From positions 1-64,000 of the forward strand of contig CALQTN020000007.1 in NCBI GenBank assembly GCA_943333505.2: a stretch of DNA of 64,000 nt, given 5' to 3'. The DNA is from Asaia bogorensis (lineage in GTDB: Bacteria > Pseudomonadota > Alphaproteobacteria > Acetobacterales > Acetobacteraceae). A program made the position numbers and the translations under genes. Of the stretch, positions 5,600-46,318 are shown piece after piece (position 1 is the stretch's first letter; each line of letters opens with the position of its first letter). The notes below the pieces were generated by a model. The model was not told where the DNA came from and did no database searches. It saw only the letters and a program-made list of their open reading frames with translations.

Positions 5600-6325
5600 C
5601 TACTGCTGGAGTTTTGCGGGGCTGGTGGCGGAGAAATCGACTAACGTGCCAAGCATTTGCAGATAGGCAACCAGGGCATCGAGTTCGGTTGGCGCACGAT
5701 CATTGCCCGGCACTACCACCGCTTTGGGATAGCGCTTCATCAGTGCTTCGGCGTCCGCCTGCGGATTGGCCTGGGCGCGCAGATCGTCCTTTGCATGGGC
5801 GATCTGATCGGGCGTGTACGGCACGCCCACCATCCGGTTGGTACGAAGATGCTTGTCGATGTGGTCGAAATCCAGCGGTGTCTTCGCCATGAAGCCGTAT
5901 TTCGGCATCAGGCTTTCCGGCACCAGTTCCTGCGGGTTGATCAGATGCGCGTAGTGCCAGTCGCTGGAATACTTGCCACCGACGCGGGCAAGGTCTGGCC
6001 CGATGCGTTTGCTGCCCCACTGGAACGGATGGTCATACATGCTTTCTGCAGCCAAGCTAAAATGGCCGTAACGTTCCACTTCATCCTTCAAGGCGCGCAC
6101 CTGCTGGCTATGGCAGGTGTAGCACCCCTCGCGGATATAGATGCCCCGGCCCATGAGCTCGAGTGGCGTGTAGGGCCGCATCCCGACGACACGTTCGACG
6201 GTGGTTTCAATGGTAAACAGCGGAACAATTTCCACGATACCACCGATGGCGACCGTTAGCAGGGTCAGCACCAGCAACAGGATAGCGTTCTTTTCAATCC
6301 ATTCATGCCAATTTCGACGGACCAT
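5600..6325 (-). CDS. ccoO: CcoO, cbb3 oxidase monohaem cytochrome c subunit
   Basis: A 241-residue subunit with an N-terminal membrane helix and one haem c motif, CYTCHSQ, near residue 68, followed by [13 protein letters not shown] and the conserved [18 protein letters not shown]. It carries electrons from CcoP to CcoN. The ATG at 6325 is 4 nt past the ccoN stop; a longer frame would overlap ccoN by about 40 nt and is not favoured. Length and motifs match the family. Confidence 0.94.
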
Positions 6326-6329
6326 AGCC

Positions 6330-7787
6330 TTACTCCCCCGCCAGGACGGCGCCGGCCGGATAGCTCGGCGCAACGCGGTTTGTGGAAGACGAACGCACCG
6401 TCATCACCAGATTGTAGACCATGATCAAGGCTCCGACGAAGAACATCATGCCGCCCATCCAGCGGATGACGTAATATGGGTGAACCGCGTTGACCGATTC
6501 AGCGAAGGAATATTGCAGGAAGCCAAAGGCGTCGTAGGCGCGCCACATCAGGCCCTGCATGATCCCGGCAACCCACATCGAGCTGATGTAGAGCACGATG
6601 CCGAGGGTCGAGATCCAGTAATGCCAGGCGACCAGGCGGGTGGAATAAAGCCCACTGCGCTTCCACAAGATCGGCACCAGATAGTAGATCGCGCCGAAGC
6701 TGATGAAGGCGTTCCAGCCTAGGGTGCCGGAATGGACATGGCCAACAATCCAGTCGGTGTAATGCGCCAGCGCGTTAACATCGCGGATCGACAGCACCGG
6801 GCCTTCGAAGGTCGACATGCCGTAGAAACCAACCGCAGTAACCGAAAAGCGCAAGGCCGGATCAGTGCGCAGTTTGTCCCAGGCGCCCGACAAGGTCATC
6901 AACCCGTTGATCATGCCGCCCCAGCTTGGCATCCACAGCATCAGCGAGAACACCATGCCGAGGAACTGTGTCCAGTCCGGCAGCGACGTGTAATGCAGAT
7001 GATGCGGGCCGGCCCAGATATACATGAACACCAGCGACCAGAAATGCACCACGCTCAGCCGGTACGAATAGATCGGCCGGTCAGCCTGCTTCGGAATGAA
7101 GTAATACATCATCCCCAGGAAACCGGCCGTCAGGAAGAAGCCGACCGCGTTATGACCATACCACCACTGGATCAGCGCACTCTGCACCCCGGCGTAAACC
7201 GCGTAGCTTTTGGCGGAATACATCGAGATCGGCAGGGCGGCATTGTTGACCAGATGCAGTACCGCAATGGTCAGGATGAAGGCGAGCATGAACCAGTTGG
7301 CGACATAGATATGCGGTTCTTCGCGCTTCAGCAGGGTTCCGACGAAAATAACCGCATAGATCACCCAGATCAGGGTAAGCCACAAATCGAGATGCCATTC
7401 CGGTTCGGCATATTCCTGGCCCTGGCTGAAACCCATCACGTAGCTCAGGGCGGCCATGACGATGAAGAACTGGTAGCCCCAGAACACCAGATCGGCCAAC
7501 GCCTCCCCACCGAACAGCCGGGCGTGACAGGTACGCTGGACAATATATAACGACGTCCCGATCAGGATTGAGCCGCCAAAGGCGAAAATCGCCGCCGAGG
7601 TGTGGACCGGACGCAAGCGGCCAAAATTGACGAACGAAAGCCCGAGATTGGCTTCCGGCCAAGCCAGTTCTGCGGCGATATAGACCCCGACCAGGAAGGC
7701 GACAATCGCCCAGAAAACCCCGGCAACGACAAACTTGCGAACCACGTCTTCATTATAGGTGATCGGCGAGAGCGTTGTTTCAGACAT
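6330..7787 (-). CDS. ccoN: CcoN, cbb3 oxidase catalytic subunit I
   Basis: A 485-residue haem-copper oxidase subunit with about 12 membrane helices. It carries the copper/haem ligand histidines in [15 protein letters not shown] and [15 protein letters not shown], and the low-spin/high-spin haem region [14 protein letters not shown]. It reduces oxygen to water with proton pumping at very low oxygen tension. It heads the ccoNOQP run and starts inside the end of a small upstream ORF (8 nt overlap). An FNR-type box lies about 290 bp upstream. Confidence 0.96.
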
Positions 7788-8072: not shown

Positions 8073-8086
8073 TTGACACAGATCAA
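8073..8086. promoter_or_regulatory. FNR/FixK box between cco operon and TauE/SafE-like gene
   Basis: The 14 bases TTGACACAGATCAA fit TTGA-N6-TCAA exactly, the site of FNR/FixK/ANR-type regulators that switch on cbb3 genes when oxygen is low. The site centre is about 90 bp from the first minus-strand start codon and about 42 bp from the plus-strand start at 8122. It fits a class II position for a minus-strand transcript starting near 8038 better than for the plus gene, which would then be nearly leaderless. Confidence 0.8.
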
Positions 8087-8929: not shown

Positions 8930-10966
8930 ATGACTTCCCGTAGAAAATTTCTTGGTTCGACTGCCGTTTTCGCGGCCGTCGCAATCTCGACTGACGCTTT
9001 GGCACAGGCGGTTGCAGGCAAGGGCCAGTTTGGTGGCTCCGGTCTGGTTGGCAATCTGGCCGGCCCGACCCAGGCGACGGTGATCCCAACAAGCTTTAAG
9101 GAAGCCCCGCAATTGGCCGAACTGGTCAAGGCCGGGAAATTGCCCCCCGTGGCGCAGCGCCTTCCGACTGAACCGATGGTGATCAAGCCTCTCGAAAGTG
9201 TTGGCAAATACGGTGGCACCTGGCGCCGTGCGTTCATCGGGCCGTCGGACGGCGAAAACGGCAACCGGATCATGGCGTCGGACAAATTGCTGTTCTGGGA
9301 CTTCACCGGCAGCAAGATCGTGCCGTCGGTGGCGAAATCCTTCGACATCAGCGCCGATGGTCGCACCACAACGCTTCATCTCCGCAAGGGCATGAAATGG
9401 TCCGATGGCGCAGCATTCACCGCCGATGATTTCGTGTTCTGGTTTGAAGACATTTACGGCAACAAGGACATCGTGCCGGCGCCGATTGCCGACATGTCGG
9501 CTGGTGGCAAGCCGGGCAAAGTGGTCAAGGTTGACGCTAACACGGTCCAGTTCGTCTTTGAGAACCCATACTTCCTGTTCCCATCGATGCTCGCCGGTGA
9601 CACGCTGATCGGTGGCGGCCAGTCGGTGCAGCAATCCGGCGCGCGCAGCTACGGCGCCTATGCCCCGGCGCACTACCTCAAGCAGTTCTTGCCGAAATAT
9701 TCCTCCGAAGCGGAAGTGAGCGCCAAAGCCAAGGCAGCCGGCTTCGATACCTGGGTGCGCCATCTGCACGTCAAGAAGGATTGGCAGCTCAACCCGGAAA
9801 TCCCGACCCTGGGGCCGTGGCGCACCACGCGGCCGATCAACACCCCGACCTGGGTGATGGAGCGCAATCCGTACTATTACGGCGTCGACACTGACGGCAA
9901 TCAGTTGCCCTATATCGACACCATCGTGATGACATTGGCCGAGAACATCGAGGTCGCCAATCTGCGCGCCATGGCAGGCGAATACGACTTGCAGGAACGC
10001 CACATGGATCTGGCCAAGCTGCCGGTGATCCTGGAAAACCGCGAGCGTGGCAAATACGACGTCCATCTCGACCTCGCCTATAACGGGTCTGACACGACGT
10101 TGCACGTGAACATGGATTATCGCGCCGATCCGCTGATCGGAAAACTGCTCGGCACCGCCGATTTCCGCCGTGCACTGTCGATGGGTATTGACCGCGAGCA
10201 GCTTAATGAAACCTTCTGGCTCGGTCTCGCCACCCCCGGGTCGAGCGCGCCGGCAGAGGCGATGCCCGAAAGCCCCGGCGCGGAATGGCGCAATAAATGG
10301 TCCACGCTCGATATTGCCGCCGCCAACAAGATGCTCGACGGCCTCGGCCTGAGCAAAAAGGACAGCGAAGGCTATCGCCTGCGCCCCGATAACGGTAAGC
10401 GGGTGGTGATTGAGCTGCTTGCGATCAAGGCATTCATGGATTGGCCGAAGCACGCTGAAATGATCGCGCAACATTGGCGCAAGATCGGTATCTATGGCGA
10501 CGTCAAGGAAAGCGAGCGCGGCCTTGCCTTCCAGCGCGTGCTCTCAGGCGATCACCATATGCTGGTCTGGACCAATGGTGGGACAGAATTGCTGTATCTC
10601 TATCCGTCCTGGGCGCTTCCAACCGACGTTTCCAACGGGGCCTACGGCGTCGAGTATGCCAAATGGTACGGATCAAACGGCACCCAGGGCACCAAGCCCA
10701 GCGACCCGAACATGATCAAGGCACTTGAGCTGTTCCGTGGTGCGGCTGGCCAGCAAGAAGCCGAGCGTAACAAAACCGCTCAGGAAATCTGGAAGATCAT
10801 GGTGGACCAGCAATTCCACATCGGCGTTTGTGGCCAGTCCCCGGCGCTGATGGGCGTTCGCCTCGCAAGCCGCAAGCTCGCCAACATCCCAGGCCGCGTC
10901 TGTATTGCCCAGCATTGCCGCACCCCCGGCAGCTCGCATCCGGAGAGCTGGTACTATAAAGCATGA
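8930..10966 (+). CDS. ABC transporter substrate-binding protein, peptide/nickel family
   Basis: A 678-residue family-5 solute-binding protein for a Dpp/Opp-type importer. The N-terminus MTSRRKFLGSTAVF has a twin-arginine motif and hydrophobic core ending ALA, so export by Tat is likely. The SBP_bac_5 region follows (KYGGTWRRAF, LRKGMKWSDGAAFTADDFVFWFEDI). The protein is somewhat longer than the usual 500-600 residues, as in the oligopeptide-type subgroup. The ATG has GGAGG 7 nt upstream. It overlaps the first permease gene (ATGA). The substrate cannot be read from sequence. Confidence 0.92.
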   Translation: MTSRRKFLGSTAVFAAVAISTDALAQAVAGKGQFGGSGLVGNLAGPTQATVIPTSFKEAPQLAELVKAGKLPPVAQRLPTEPMVIKPLESVGKYGGTWRRAFIGPSDGENGNRIMASDKLLFWDFTGSKIVPSVAKSFDISADGRTTTLHLRKGMKWSDGAAFTADDFVFWFEDIYGNKDIVPAPIADMSAGGKPGKVVKVDANTVQFVFENPYFLFPSMLAGDTLIGGGQSVQQSGARSYGAYAPAHYLKQFLPKYSSEAEVSAKAKAAGFDTWVRHLHVKKDWQLNPEIPTLGPWRTTRPINTPTWVMERNPYYYGVDTDGNQLPYIDTIVMTLAENIEVANLRAMAGEYDLQERHMDLAKLPVILENRERGKYDVHLDLAYNGSDTTLHVNMDYRADPLIGKLLGTADFRRALSMGIDREQLNETFWLGLATPGSSAPAEAMPESPGAEWRNKWSTLDIAAANKMLDGLGLSKKDSEGYRLRPDNGKRVVIELLAIKAFMDWPKHAEMIAQHWRKIGIYGDVKESERGLAFQRVLSGDHHMLVWTNGGTELLYLYPSWALPTDVSNGAYGVEYAKWYGSNGTQGTKPSDPNMIKALELFRGAAGQQEAERNKTAQEIWKIMVDQQFHIGVCGQSPALMGVRLASRKLANIPGRVCIAQHCRTPGSSHPESWYYKA

Positions 10967-33257: not shown

Positions 33258-33271
33258 TTGACTTAGATCAA
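33258..33271. promoter_or_regulatory. FNR/FixK box upstream of Hint-domain gene
   Basis: TTGACTTAGATCAA matches TTGA-N6-TCAA exactly. Its centre is 102 bp before the ATG at 33367. A class II promoter would start RNA near 33306, leaving about 60 nt of leader; only a weak -10 (CACGAT, 33294-33299) is visible. It suggests low-oxygen induction of the next gene. Binding is not shown. Confidence 0.65.
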
Positions 33272-33366
33272 CGCCGCGATCGGCCAGCAGAGGCACGATG
33301 TCGTTGGAGTGCCGGGCGGTGGGTGCGAGGCATCCTTGCTGCCCAACCGGCGCGCCGGAGACCAAA

Positions 33367-41323: not shown

Positions 41324-41399
<76 letters not shown>

Positions 41400-42078: not shown

Positions 42079-43982
42079 TGGTCTGCCCGCAATGAAGCTG
42101 CCATCGCCGCGAACACGGGTTCCCAGCGTTTATCCGGCCCCTGGCGGAACAGGCGCAGGCTTGGGTACCAAGGGCTGGTGTCGCGGTCGCGCAACCAGCG
42201 CCAATCCGCGACGTGGCCGAGCACGAGCCAGCATCGCACGCCAAGCGCGCCCGCCAGATGGGCAATCGCGGTGTCACAGGTTATCACAAGATCGAGGGTC
42301 GCCATCACCGCGGCACTATCCAGAAAGGCATCGGGCCCGGCATCGAAACCCGCGCCGAGGGTCTCCACGGCCATCCCATCCGGCAGGTCGGTGAAATCAG
42401 CTCCTTTCTGCAGACTGATCAGCCGCACATCCGGCAACTGGCTTATTGTCTGGAGTGCGGCAATCGGAAACGATCGCCCCCCAAGCTCGGCCCGTTCTGC
42501 GCCCTGCCAATTGATGCCGATCCGTCGTCCGGCGGGGCCCAATACCGCCTGCCAATGCGCGACGCGCGCCGGATCGGCGGCAAAATATGGAATATCCGCC
42601 GGGATCGTTTCTGGCGTCGTCTGAAACAGATACGGCAAGCTCAGCATGCGAATGATGAAATCGAACCGGGTGGTGGTATGCCCCATGCGGAACATTGTGC
42701 GCCAATCGACATCAATATGCTCGACCGGCACATCCAGCCCCGCCACCAAATGGCGCAAACCCGGCTGGATCGACAAAAGAATGATCGCACCGGCCGCGTG
42801 CAGCAGCTTGAGATAGCGGATGAACTGGATCGTATCACCCAGCCCGATTTCCCAAACCACCAGCACCCGCACGCCGCGCGCCGACGCCAGGCGCGCCGGG
42901 GTCAGATAGCGCGCATCGAGGTGCAGGCGCGGAAACTGCGCGTCGCGATATTCATAGAGCGGCCAGCCGGCGGCAAACGCGCCCAGCGACAACAGGCTGT
43001 AGGATTGATTGACGATTGCGTGGAAATGGTCGGCCTGCAGAGCGACGCAGCGCGCGAAACGCTCCACCGCCTCGGCCGGACGATCATCCGCATGCAGCGC
43101 GATGCCAAGATTGTAATGCGCCTTGATATAGCCTGCATCGAGCGCAATCGCACGCTCATAGTCAACGATCGCGGCGGCAAAATTCCCAACCTGTTGGTGG
43201 GTATTGCCGCGATTGTAGAATGGCTCGGCGAGCGTTGGTTGCAGCGCGATTGCGGCATCGAAGGCGACATTGGCCTCCGCCAACCGTCCCAGGCTTTGCA
43301 GCGTGCTGCCGCGATTATTCAGTGCCTCGGCATAACCCGGCATACGCGCCAAGGCCGCATCGTAGCTCGCCAGCGCCGCATCGAACTGCCCCAGCGCCTT
43401 GAGGCTGTTGCCACGATTATTATGGCTTTGCGCCAAGGTCGGATCGAGGCTGAGCGCGCTATCGAACGCGGCCAACGCCTCCTCCGGTCGGGAGAGCGCC
43501 AGCAGCACGCTGCCACGGTTGGAATGGGCCTGGGCGTGGGTCGGGCGCAGCCGAATGGCGTTGTCGTAGGCCGCCAGTGCCTCGCGATGCCGGCCAAGGC
43601 CTTGCAATGCAATCGCCCGGTTGTAGTGCGGCATGTCGTTGGCCGCCTGAATGGCGATGGCCCGATCATAGGCGGCAATGGCGTCGCGCGCGCGGCCGAG
43701 CGCGGCCAGCATGTTCCCGAGATTGCTGAGCGCGGGGTAATACGCCGGCGCAAGGACGGTTGCCTGGCGCACCAGCCCCACCCCATCGTCCGGCCGCCCA
43801 GTCTGAAAGCAGAGCAGCCCGAGGAAATGCAACGCCTCCACATTGCGCCCATCCCGCGCCAGCGCGCCCCGCAGCAACGCCTCGGCGGCCTTCACATCGC
43901 CGGCCCGCATGGCGGCAATACCACGCGCGACGGCTGGATCGGCGGGGTTGGCGGGTTGCATCGGAGGTTTCAGTCTCGACAT
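42075..43982 (-). CDS. TPR-repeat protein with C-terminal GT9-like domain
   Basis: A 635-residue protein. At least nine TPR-type units run from about residue 15 to 320 (for example AHSNRGSVLLALSRPEEALAAFDSAL and YNRGNTHQQVGNFAAAIVDYERAI). The C-terminal half has LVVWEIGLGDTIQFIRYLKLL, ITCDTAIAHLAGALGVRCWLVL and WYPSLRLFRQ, as in glycosyltransferase-9-like domains of TPR sugar transferases. A surface glycan or flagellin-glycosylation role is inferred only. Start is the first Met of a long open frame (a second Met is 8 codons on). Divergent from the TauD-type gene. Confidence 0.85.
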   Translation of the reverse strand: MSRLKPPMQPANPADPAVARGIAAMRAGDVKAAEALLRGALARDGRNVEALHFLGLLCFQTGRPDDGVGLVRQATVLAPAYYPALSNLGNMLAALGRARDAIAAYDRAIAIQAANDMPHYNRAIALQGLGRHREALAAYDNAIRLRPTHAQAHSNRGSVLLALSRPEEALAAFDSALSLDPTLAQSHNNRGNSLKALGQFDAALASYDAALARMPGYAEALNNRGSTLQSLGRLAEANVAFDAAIALQPTLAEPFYNRGNTHQQVGNFAAAIVDYERAIALDAGYIKAHYNLGIALHADDRPAEAVERFARCVALQADHFHAIVNQSYSLLSLGAFAAGWPLYEYRDAQFPRLHLDARYLTPARLASARGVRVLVVWEIGLGDTIQFIRYLKLLHAAGAIILLSIQPGLRHLVAGLDVPVEHIDVDWRTMFRMGHTTTRFDFIIRMLSLPYLFQTTPETIPADIPYFAADPARVAHWQAVLGPAGRRIGINWQGAERAELGGRSFPIAALQTISQLPDVRLISLQKGADFTDLPDGMAVETLGAGFDAGPDAFLDSAAVMATLDLVITCDTAIAHLAGALGVRCWLVLGHVADWRWLRDRDTSPWYPSLRLFRQGPDKRWEPVFAAMAASLRADQ

Positions 43983-44075
43983 CCCGCTATTCTAGAACAA
44001 TTCACGCCGCCGACCAACGGATTGACATTCGACCGCCCCCGGGAAACCTTCGCGCCATCTGCCCGGGAGGACACC

Positions 44076-45167
44076 ATGGCCACCACACACACGCAAACTG
44101 CCCGCCCGCCGCTCACCGGCCGGGGGGTCTGGACAGGCACCGAGCTGGCCCGCTCCGGCGATTGGATCCGCACGCTCGACGCTGGCCAGATCGGTGAAAT
44201 CGATGCAGCCCTTGGTGCGCTTAAGCGCGCCGGCGCCCCATTGCTGGGTTTCCAGCGCCAGGATTTCCCGCTGCCGCGCAGCGCCGCGCTACTCGCCGAT
44301 ATTTCCGATGAGCTCGAAAACGGTCGCGGCGCGGTGCGTTTGCGGGGGCTGCCGGTGGAACGCTATTCCGAGGACGATCTTCGGCAGATTTTCTGGGGCA
44401 TTGGCCGCCATCTCGGCACCGCGATCTACCAGAACGCGCGCGGCGAAATCATGGGCGAGGTGCGCGACGAAACCAAGCGCACCGATAAAACCTACGATGA
44501 AACCCAGGACGGCAAAGTGGCATCGGCCCGCGCCCGCTCGCGCTCCACAGGTCCGTTGCGCTGGCATACGGATCGCTGCGACGTGATCGCGTTGTTATGC
44601 GTCAGCAACGCCCAGGCCGGCGGGATCTCCAAGCTCGCCTCGATCCCAGCGATCTACAACGAAATCCTGGCCCGCCGCCCCGATCTGCTGGAATTGCTGT
44701 GCCAGGATTACTGGCGGTCGCGCCCGGTCGATGAAGACGGGCTATCGCCCGATAATGTTTTCGCCATGCCGGTCTTCGGTTTCGCTGGCGCCAAGATTAC
44801 CAGCCAGTATTCGCGCACCTATGTCGAACAGGCCCAGGAAGTCGCGCGCGTCCCGAGGCTGAACGCCGCCCAGAACGAGGCGTTGGATATGCTCGCCACC
44901 ATCGCCGAGGAAGTCTGCCTGCTTTCCGCATTCGAAGCCGGTGACATCCAACTGCTCAACAACCATGTCATCTACCACGGGCGCACCGCTTACGAAGACA
45001 ACAGTGCCAGCCGCCAGGAACGGTTGCTGTTCCGGCTATGGCTTTCAGTGCCAAACAGTCGGGCGCTGCCGGCGGGCTTCGACGGTCTCTGGGGCAGCAT
45101 TGCACCCGGCGCCTTACGCGGCGGGGTGGTGCAGCCGGAAACCGGGCTGCGGATTCCCCGAGAATGA
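44076..45167 (+). CDS. TauD/TfdA-family Fe(II)/2-oxoglutarate dioxygenase
   Basis: A 363-residue dioxygenase-like protein. LRWHTDRCDVIALLC near residue 162 has the His-x-Asp metal pair, and NNHVIYHGRTAYEDN near residue 300 the distal His; the Arg in LLFRLWLSVP would bind 2-oxoglutarate. These enzymes hydroxylate small acids or sulfonates in the cytoplasm. GGGAGG lies 9-10 nt before the ATG. A very long frame opens upstream from 42213 but is antisense to the TPR gene and is not real. The FNR-like site begins at the base after the stop. Confidence 0.9.
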   Translation: MATTHTQTARPPLTGRGVWTGTELARSGDWIRTLDAGQIGEIDAALGALKRAGAPLLGFQRQDFPLPRSAALLADISDELENGRGAVRLRGLPVERYSEDDLRQIFWGIGRHLGTAIYQNARGEIMGEVRDETKRTDKTYDETQDGKVASARARSRSTGPLRWHTDRCDVIALLCVSNAQAGGISKLASIPAIYNEILARRPDLLELLCQDYWRSRPVDEDGLSPDNVFAMPVFGFAGAKITSQYSRTYVEQAQEVARVPRLNAAQNEALDMLATIAEEVCLLSAFEAGDIQLLNNHVIYHGRTAYEDNSASRQERLLFRLWLSVPNSRALPAGFDGLWGSIAPGALRGGVVQPETGLRIPRE

Positions 45168-45207
45168 TTGATCCAGGTCAACGCCATATGCGCGCCGGGC
45201 GACTAAT
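45168..45207 (+). promoter_or_regulatory. FNR box with class II-like promoter
   Basis: The 14-mer TTGATCCAGGTCAA (45168-45181) fits TTGA-N6-TCAA. A -10-like ACTAAT lies at 45202-45207, so RNA would start at about 45214-45216, placing the box centre 40-41.5 bp upstream, the usual FNR class II distance. It would drive the candidate small RNA in this gap rather than the dehydrogenase gene, as a terminator lies between. Confidence 0.5.
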
Positions 45208-45213
45208 GAATGT

Positions 45214-45326
45214 CCGACCGCATATGCGATCCCGGTTTTTGAACCGGACTGGCCGAGCATATCACTCCCCCCATTGCTCCGGCCCCACCTTGGCCGACCG
45301 CGGTTCATTCGCGGTCGGCCTTTTTT
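45214..45326 (+). ncRNA. Candidate FNR-controlled small RNA with C-rich loop
   Basis: About 112 nt ending in an intrinsic terminator. Hairpin 1: CCGGTT-TTTG-AACCGG (45232-45247). Hairpin 2: GAGCA (45255-45259) pairs with TGCTC (45275-45279) around a 15-nt loop containing ACTCCCCCCAT, which could pair with GGGGGAG-type ribosome sites. Hairpin 3 is the terminator. C-rich anti-Shine-Dalgarno loops are known in several alphaproteobacterial sRNAs. No conserved small ORF is apparent. Transcription is not shown. Confidence 0.45.
45292..45326 (+). terminator. Rho-independent terminator
   Basis: A perfect 11-bp stem GGCCGACCGCG/CGCGGTCGGCC with the 7-nt loop GTTCATT, followed by six T at 45321-45326. 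This is a strong plus-strand terminator, 63 nt before the ATG of the dehydrogenase gene. It would end transcripts of the TauD-type gene or of the candidate sRNA. Confidence 0.92.
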
Positions 45327-45388: not shown

Positions 45389-46318
45389 ATGTCCAACCCC
45401 ACATCCACAAGCGCGCTTCATGTCGGCATTATCGGCCTCGGGTCGATGGGGATGGGGGCGGCGCTCAACCTGGTCAAGGCCGGGCACCAGGTATGCGGCG
45501 CCGAATTGCGCGATAGCGCGCGGGCGGAATTGATTGCGGCAGGCGGCCAGGCGGTAGCGCGGGCAGCGGATCTGCCGACCGGGATGGATGCGCTGGTGGT
45601 GTTCGTGGTCAACGCTGCCCAGGTTGACGATGTGTTGTTTGGCGAAAATGGCTGCCTCGATCGTCTGGCCCCAGGGGCAGTGGTTTTGTGCTGCACCACG
45701 GTCGCCCCGGAATATGCCCGCAGCCTCGCCACCCGGCTCGAAGCCCGGCAATTGCGCTTGCTGGATGCCCCGGTTTCCGGCGGCATGGGGGCCGCGCGCG
45801 GCGGCACCATGACAGTGATGGCATCCGGCACCATTGCCGCATTCGATGCCGCGCAGCCCGTGCTCGACGCGGTCGCCGGCAAAGTCTGGCGGCTGGGGGA
45901 TGAAGCCGGCATCGGCAGCACCATCAAGATGGTCAACCAGTTGCTCGCCGGCGTCCATATCGCGGTCGCCGCCGAGGCCATGGCACTCGGCATTCGCGCC
46001 GGCGCCGATCCACAAACGCTGTTCGATGTCATCTCGTCATCGGCGGGCAGTTCGTGGATGTGGCAGAACCGGATGCCGCATGTCCTGGCCGGGGACGACA
46101 CCCCGAGTTCGGCGGTGAATATCTTCGTCAAGGATCTCGGGATTGTGCTCGATCAGGCTCGCGCGCTAACTTTTCCGTTGCCGATGGCGTCGTCGGCGCA
46201 TCAACTCTTCCTCGCCGCCGCCGCCGCCGGGCATGGCGGGCGCGACGATGCGTTCGTTATCCGGTTCTGGGAGATGCTGGCCGGCATTGCGTTGCCGACC
46301 GGCAAAACGCCCGACTAG
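45389..46318 (+). CDS. Beta-hydroxyacid dehydrogenase family (NAD-binding)
   Basis: A 309-residue enzyme of the 3-hydroxyisobutyrate dehydrogenase-like family. GIIGLGSMGMGAALNLVKAGH is the Rossmann GxGxxG start. LDAPVSGGMGAARGGTMTVM is the substrate-binding stretch and IGSTIKMVNQLLAGVHIA has the catalytic Lys. The substrate could be threonate or another hydroxyacid. The TAG stop is the first three bases of repeat copy F. It lies 63 nt behind a terminator and so needs its own promoter. Confidence 0.92.
   Translation: MSNPTSTSALHVGIIGLGSMGMGAALNLVKAGHQVCGAELRDSARAELIAAGGQAVARAADLPTGMDALVVFVVNAAQVDDVLFGENGCLDRLAPGAVVLCCTTVAPEYARSLATRLEARQLRLLDAPVSGGMGAARGGTMTVMASGTIAAFDAAQPVLDAVAGKVWRLGDEAGIGSTIKMVNQLLAGVHIAVAAEAMALGIRAGADPQTLFDVISSSAGSSWMWQNRMPHVLAGDDTPSSAVNIFVKDLGIVLDQARALTFPLPMASSAHQLFLAAAAAGHGGRDDAFVIRFWEMLAGIALPTGKTPD

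Follow-up and report, generated by a model that had tools for sequence, protein, structure and literature searches.

A conserved candidate small RNA with a C-rich loop behind an FNR/FixK-type box in Acetobacteraceae

The window, as we term the whole stretch of 64 kb that was analysed, contains between a TauD-type dioxygenase gene and an L-threonate dehydrogenase-type gene what is probably a stand-alone small RNA (sRNA) gene, predicted to be activated by a regulator of the FNR/FixK type and to lower translation of several mRNAs in low oxygen by an anti-Shine-Dalgarno action. In the best reading of the sequence, the RNA would represent a new family, similar to FnrS in its logic. The initial annotation had proposed an oxygen-responsive sRNA of this kind, with a C-rich anti-Shine-Dalgarno loop, and the conservation of the RNA, its FNR-type box and the presence of FNR/FixK regulators in the genome all favour this proposal. 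The family is conserved, has so far had no name, carries its FNR-type box where an activator would bind, and occurs in uncultured bacteria, several of them from lakes. Coordinates of features at the locus are collected in Table 1.

Table 1. Features of the candidate sRNA locus and of its neighbourhood (positions in the window)
Feature	Position	Strand	Remarks
TauD-type dioxygenase gene, upstream	43920..45167	+	start provisional; absent here in G001 and G003
FNR/FixK-type box TTGATCCAGGTCAA	45168..45181	+	perfect match; centre at about -41.5 from the inferred +1
-10 element ACTAAT	45202..45207	+	GATAGT at the equivalent place in G001 and G003
sRNA gene	45216..45324	+	+1 inferred at ~45216; 3' end inferred within the T-run 45321-45326; fold, conservation, covariance-model homologs
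Hairpin 1, CCGGTT TTTG AACCGG	45232..45247	+	fold; pair-keeping changes in g21
Hairpin 2, 15-nt open loop AUAUCACUCCCCCCA	45251..45284	+	fold, covariation, CCCCC invariant in 10/10 homologs
Intrinsic terminator	45292..45326	+	12-bp stem 45292-45320, then TTTTTT
L-threonate dehydrogenase-type gene, downstream	45389..46318	+	adjoins the RNA in the 4 g1 species with RNA; not in g21

Predicted promoter and fold of the RNA

The FNR/FixK-type box starts right behind the stop codon of the TauD-type gene. Counting 41.5 nt from its centre, the class II position, places the inferred +1 at ~45216, so that the class II spacing claimed initially for the box (45168-45181), the -10 element (45202-45207) and a start at about 45215 is reproduced nearly to the nucleotide. 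The ACTAAT element is only a 4/6 match, and no -35/-10 promoter was detected at the locus in a sigma-70 scan. Activator-dependent promoters usually give no -35/-10 match in such scans, and the result is therefore usual for a promoter of this type. A search of the 4.52-Mb genome for the pattern TTGAYNNNNRTCAA gave 24 matches, compared to 4 for the same pattern read backwards, while the chance expectation of a box in the given 7-nt class II slot is ~4e-5. For these two reasons, the box at the sRNA locus is not considered a chance match.

The folding energy of the 112-nt stretch is -52.4 kcal/mol, against a mean of -31.8 in shuffled sequences (z = -6.5, 0/200). This result bears out the claim of a structured RNA of ~112 nt, but the three hairpins assigned to it are accompanied by a fourth, short one at the 5' end, upstream of hairpin 1. 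The C-rich CUCCCCCC loop, 15 nt long, is open in the fold of hairpin 2 and holds the candidate anti-Shine-Dalgarno seed at ~45259-45274. The terminator, described earlier as textbook, has indeed a 12-bp stem followed by T6.

Conservation and genomic settings

Homologs were assigned to three genera: g1, the genus of the window (G000, which is the window genome, and G001, G002, G003 and G004), g21 (G024, G265, G233, G138 and G191) and g92, in which one species carrying the RNA (G095) was found. In a DNA search, the congeners G001 and G003 are 89-90% identical to the window, the identity beginning at 45213/45214, that is, at the predicted start. Both carry an FNR-type box (ATGATTTAGGTCAA in G001 and ATGATTTAAGTCAA in G003), each one half-site letter off, as well as the -10 element GATAGT at the identical place, and the 98-nt spacing from box to loop is unchanged in the alignment. 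The FNR-type box at the activating position, 41.5 nt from its centre to the inferred +1, is thus kept in the relatives. Since box, -10 element, RNA and spacing are all conserved, the case for this locus is far stronger than could have been known at the time of the initial annotation.

A covariance model built from the window RNA and its copies in G001 and G003 disclosed homologs in 4 of the 5 g1 species (the fourth being G002), in all five g21 species and in one g92 species, with one copy in each. In G004 the RNA is apparently absent according to the covariance-model search; a match to the loop letters in that genome is due to chance, as both stem and terminator are missing. Compensatory changes among the 10 homologs involve 8 pairs and 14 cells, versus 4.2 and 5.4 in shuffles; 14 cells were reached in 0/500 shuffles, and slid controls gave 0-2 pairs. 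For example, hairpin 1 reads CCGGCCC/GGGCCGG and CCGACCC/GGGTCGG in g21, with pairing kept. The CCCCC of the loop is invariant and unpaired in every homolog, while the loop letters flanking it vary between genera, which indicates that targets may differ too.

A scan of 84,980 species genomes with the exact pattern gave 7 places and none beyond the loci already found; the MAGs concerned are classified as Acetobacteraceae, Rhodospirillales or Alphaproteobacteria. A scan of viral contigs gave no match to the RNA. Weak covariance-model matches (R1/R2) beyond the three genera were each read and rejected, most of them being bare terminators or suhB copies.

The surroundings of the RNA differ among these genomes. 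In G024 and G265 the order is hemN (divergent), FNR box, ompW, RNA and hldE, and G233 shows the same arrangement from the FNR box onwards. In G138 and G191, ompW is gone from between, leaving hemN, FNR box, RNA and hldE, and G095 has hemN, box and RNA. In two of the three genera, the RNA therefore adjoins known low-oxygen genes. The names hemN, ompW and hldE were given in G024, and copies in other genomes were assigned from identical opening residues. Both half-sites are perfect in the boxes upstream of the RNA in G002, G191, G138 and G095, and also in those upstream of the RNA-carrying ompW in G024, G265 and G233. Accompanying an FNR box in three gene settings, the RNA is best regarded as a putative FNR-linked trans-acting molecule, and this constancy speaks against the role of a leader for one particular gene.

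In G001 and G003, the left flank holds a remnant of a TPR gene in place of the TauD-type gene. As these two closest relatives retain box, -10 element and RNA, read-through from the TauD-type gene, named initially as the result that would speak against an sRNA, is an unlikely source of the transcript. A transposase-like frame, read as IS110-like, lies in G001 between about 2.5 and 1.6 kb before the RNA loop (L069, reversed) and may explain why the left flank has changed.

Alternative explanations and known RNA families

Four other explanations of the locus were weighed against a stand-alone sRNA. The FNR promoter could drive the L-threonate dehydrogenase gene, with hairpins that control read-through as a cis-acting leader or attenuator. 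This gene begins ~62 nt past the terminator and lies downstream in 4/4 g1 species with the RNA, and a G-run, GGGGGTA, follows directly 3' of the T-run. In g21, however, loop and terminator are kept although the next gene is hldE, and we find a leader unlikely. A relic without regulatory role, derived from the conserved 3' UTR or terminator of a preceding gene under FNR control (ompW in the ancestor), would agree with the position directly behind ompW and its FNR box in G024, G265 and G233, and with the frequency of FNR boxes at ompW genes of the family Acetobacteraceae (18/30 loci read). Such an origin without function is improbable, given that hairpin 2, which is not part of the terminator, survives with the rest of the RNA in genomes that have no ompW next to it (G191, G138, G095), that the g1 RNA occupies an unrelated locus with a box of its own, and that the invariant CCCCC sits in a separate hairpin which a terminator does not need.

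A divergent copy of MmgR/suhB (alpha-r8) is similar in style, having a hairpin, a C-rich anti-Shine-Dalgarno stretch and a similar spacer before the terminator, and covariance model R2 gives weak matches to suhB elsewhere in the family. Nevertheless, RF00519 does not list the locus among its matches in this genome, where two copies exceed the cut-off elsewhere (G000:C32:5228-5300 and C21:28233-28324; L103, L116), and the C-rich stretch is enclosed in a hairpin loop here, while the suhB copies have a different sequence, which makes this relationship very unlikely. Most related species checked likewise have two MmgR/suhB copies. Least probable is a small protein gene of 36 codons from the ATG at 45224: in the three closest species its frame runs for 27 codons or more without a stop, but a Shine-Dalgarno sequence is missing, in-frame changes mostly alter residues, and in G002, G095 and most of g21 the frame is missing while the structure covaries instead. 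The small protein was rejected on these grounds.

Rfam searches at gathering score and at E <= 10 gave only sub-threshold matches, such as Hrs13 (22 bits vs 52), in agreement with the earlier statement that no named family is recognizable. In particular, the FnrS model does not match the locus, whether at gathering score or up to E 10, and neither do alpha-r14/AbcR-type anti-Shine-Dalgarno RNAs, as far as their models are in Rfam 15. A search of the open-access literature found no paper describing the sRNA.

Enterobacteria are well known to have sRNAs under FNR control. In E. coli and Salmonella, FnrS is a short FNR-driven RNA that represses by base pairing at low oxygen, and NarS, linked to FNR, is the 3' end of narK mRNA (PMC8139620). 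By analogy, these two are closest to the window RNA in logic, and no relationship to FnrS is claimed. Judged by sequence, the window RNA shares with FnrS its short length, terminator-defined end and FNR-type promoter, but it belongs to another bacterial class, differs in sequence and has no Rfam match. Similarly to NarS, the RNA behind ompW in g21 is located at the 3' end of a gene under FNR control; unlike NarS, its host mRNA would be that of ompW, and the window RNA has its own promoter. In taxon and stimulus, the closest is PcrZ of Rhodobacter sphaeroides, the alphaproteobacterial FNR-type sRNA named in a review, which is induced at low oxygen and depends on PrrA and FnrL, the FnrL effect being perhaps only indirect (PMC8139620); the likeness is drawn from its description. 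MmgR/suhB (RF00519, alpha-r8; Sis RNAs of Caulobacter) is also an alphaproteobacterial RNA with three hairpins and a C-rich anti-Shine-Dalgarno stretch (PMC7143759, PMC12559287), regulated in the case of MmgR via NtrC/AniA (PMC7143759), but the RF00519 model does not match the window RNA.

Oxygen regulon, predicted pairing partners and possible origin

Three of the 24 genomic TTGAYNNNNRTCAA boxes are situated in the window: at ccoN (8073), before the frame at 33298, and at the sRNA locus. The perfect box at 8073-8086 precedes ccoN (cbb3 oxidase, 7787-6333, minus strand) by 286 bases, with a DsbD_2-domain gene on its other side. The box at 33258-33271, also perfect, lies 26 bases before the ATG of the open frame 33298, whose predicted product is long and repeat-rich and has a Hint-like part. 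Elsewhere in the genome, two boxes precede an MFS gene read as narK, and one is inside a FixJ-like gene, close to a neighbouring FixK-like gene. An FnrL-like protein with the iron-sulphur motif CxxCx7C (SVCSKCEQRSISVC) is encoded (best NCBIfam match FnrL, with 158 bits below the cut-off of 300), as are FixK-like proteins, one of them beside the FixJ-like gene. Boxes at ccoN and at the narK-like gene, together with these proteins, indicate an oxygen regulon of the FNR/FixK type, and FnrL or FixK would be the regulator acting at the sRNA box.

In the proposed mechanism for the stand-alone sRNA, falling oxygen would lead FnrL (or FixK) to bind the box centred at -41.5 and bring RNA polymerase to the weak -10 element; from the box, its position and its conservation we infer this activation step, and with it transcription itself. 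Terminator, fold and covariation suggest that a free RNA of ~110 nt would end at its own terminator, while processing of the ompW mRNA may be its source in G024, G265 and G233. Through its C-rich hairpin loop, the RNA would then base-pair with several mRNAs at their G-rich Shine-Dalgarno regions, reducing their translation, as FnrS does in enterobacteria. Such pairing is proposed on account of the invariant open CCCCC and of known alphaproteobacterial anti-Shine-Dalgarno RNAs (PMC7143759, PMC12559287). The RNA is presumably dependent on Hfq, and a T-run is present. Against this explanation stand the one half-site mismatch in each of the G001 and G003 boxes, the seeming lack of the RNA in G004, the variation of the flanking loop letters between genera, and the outcome of target prediction described next.

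Pairing with start regions was evaluated for 1,612 genes (2.4 Mb, about half the genome), where the real loop beats 58/60 shuffles; inside genes it beats 55/60. The difference between start and coding regions is not special with regard to shuffles, and in these 1,612 genes the loop is not singled out beyond its C-richness. The anti-Shine-Dalgarno action is thus a plausible proposal. The gene at 8930, suggested initially as a partner, does not stand out among those predicted, G-rich sites being generic.

The start region of ccoO (FixO family; 5603-6339, minus strand) contains GGGGGAGT, complementary to the RNA loop over 8 bp. Pairing at this site could possibly make the regulon limit its own activity; as a conserved target site it was dismissed, since it was not found in G001 and G003. 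Likewise, GGGGGAGTG before an ornithine decarboxylase-type gene, which forms 9 bp with the loop and is kept in G001 and G003, was rejected as target evidence because G004, seemingly without the RNA, has this pattern as well.

The leader of an ornithine decarboxylase-type gene contains GGGGGAGTGCGCGCGATG, which together with the preceding 60 bases is identical in G000, G001 and G003 (G000:C34:7196-7213; L100:1501-1518), and the pattern occurs in G004 too. No Rfam family reaches its gathering score in this leader. Its strong conservation suggests a cis-regulatory element.

The series of genomic settings is the most interesting aspect of this RNA: found behind ompW, between hemN and hldE, and alone, it offers a natural series from an mRNA 3' end to a free-standing sRNA gene. 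Tentatively, the RNA may at first have been the 3' end of the ompW mRNA, under FNR control, and have become a stand-alone gene afterwards. Loss of ompW would have left its FNR promoter driving the RNA directly in G191, G138 and G095, and in g1 the RNA would have come to lie elsewhere, under an FNR-type promoter of its own. If true, this would be a path from an mRNA 3' UTR to a free oxygen-response sRNA with intermediate stages still visible. The reverse order, in which the free RNA came first and ompW was inserted later, is possible.

Hairpins with a UUCCCCC loop were observed just 3' of ompW in two further genera (G126 and G008; L161 and L138). They were not counted as relatives of the RNA, C-rich hairpins being too common in GC-rich DNA, and may be either accidental or an earlier version of this seed. 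In addition, the window contains a tRNA-Lys(CTT) gene at 41324-41399 on the minus strand.
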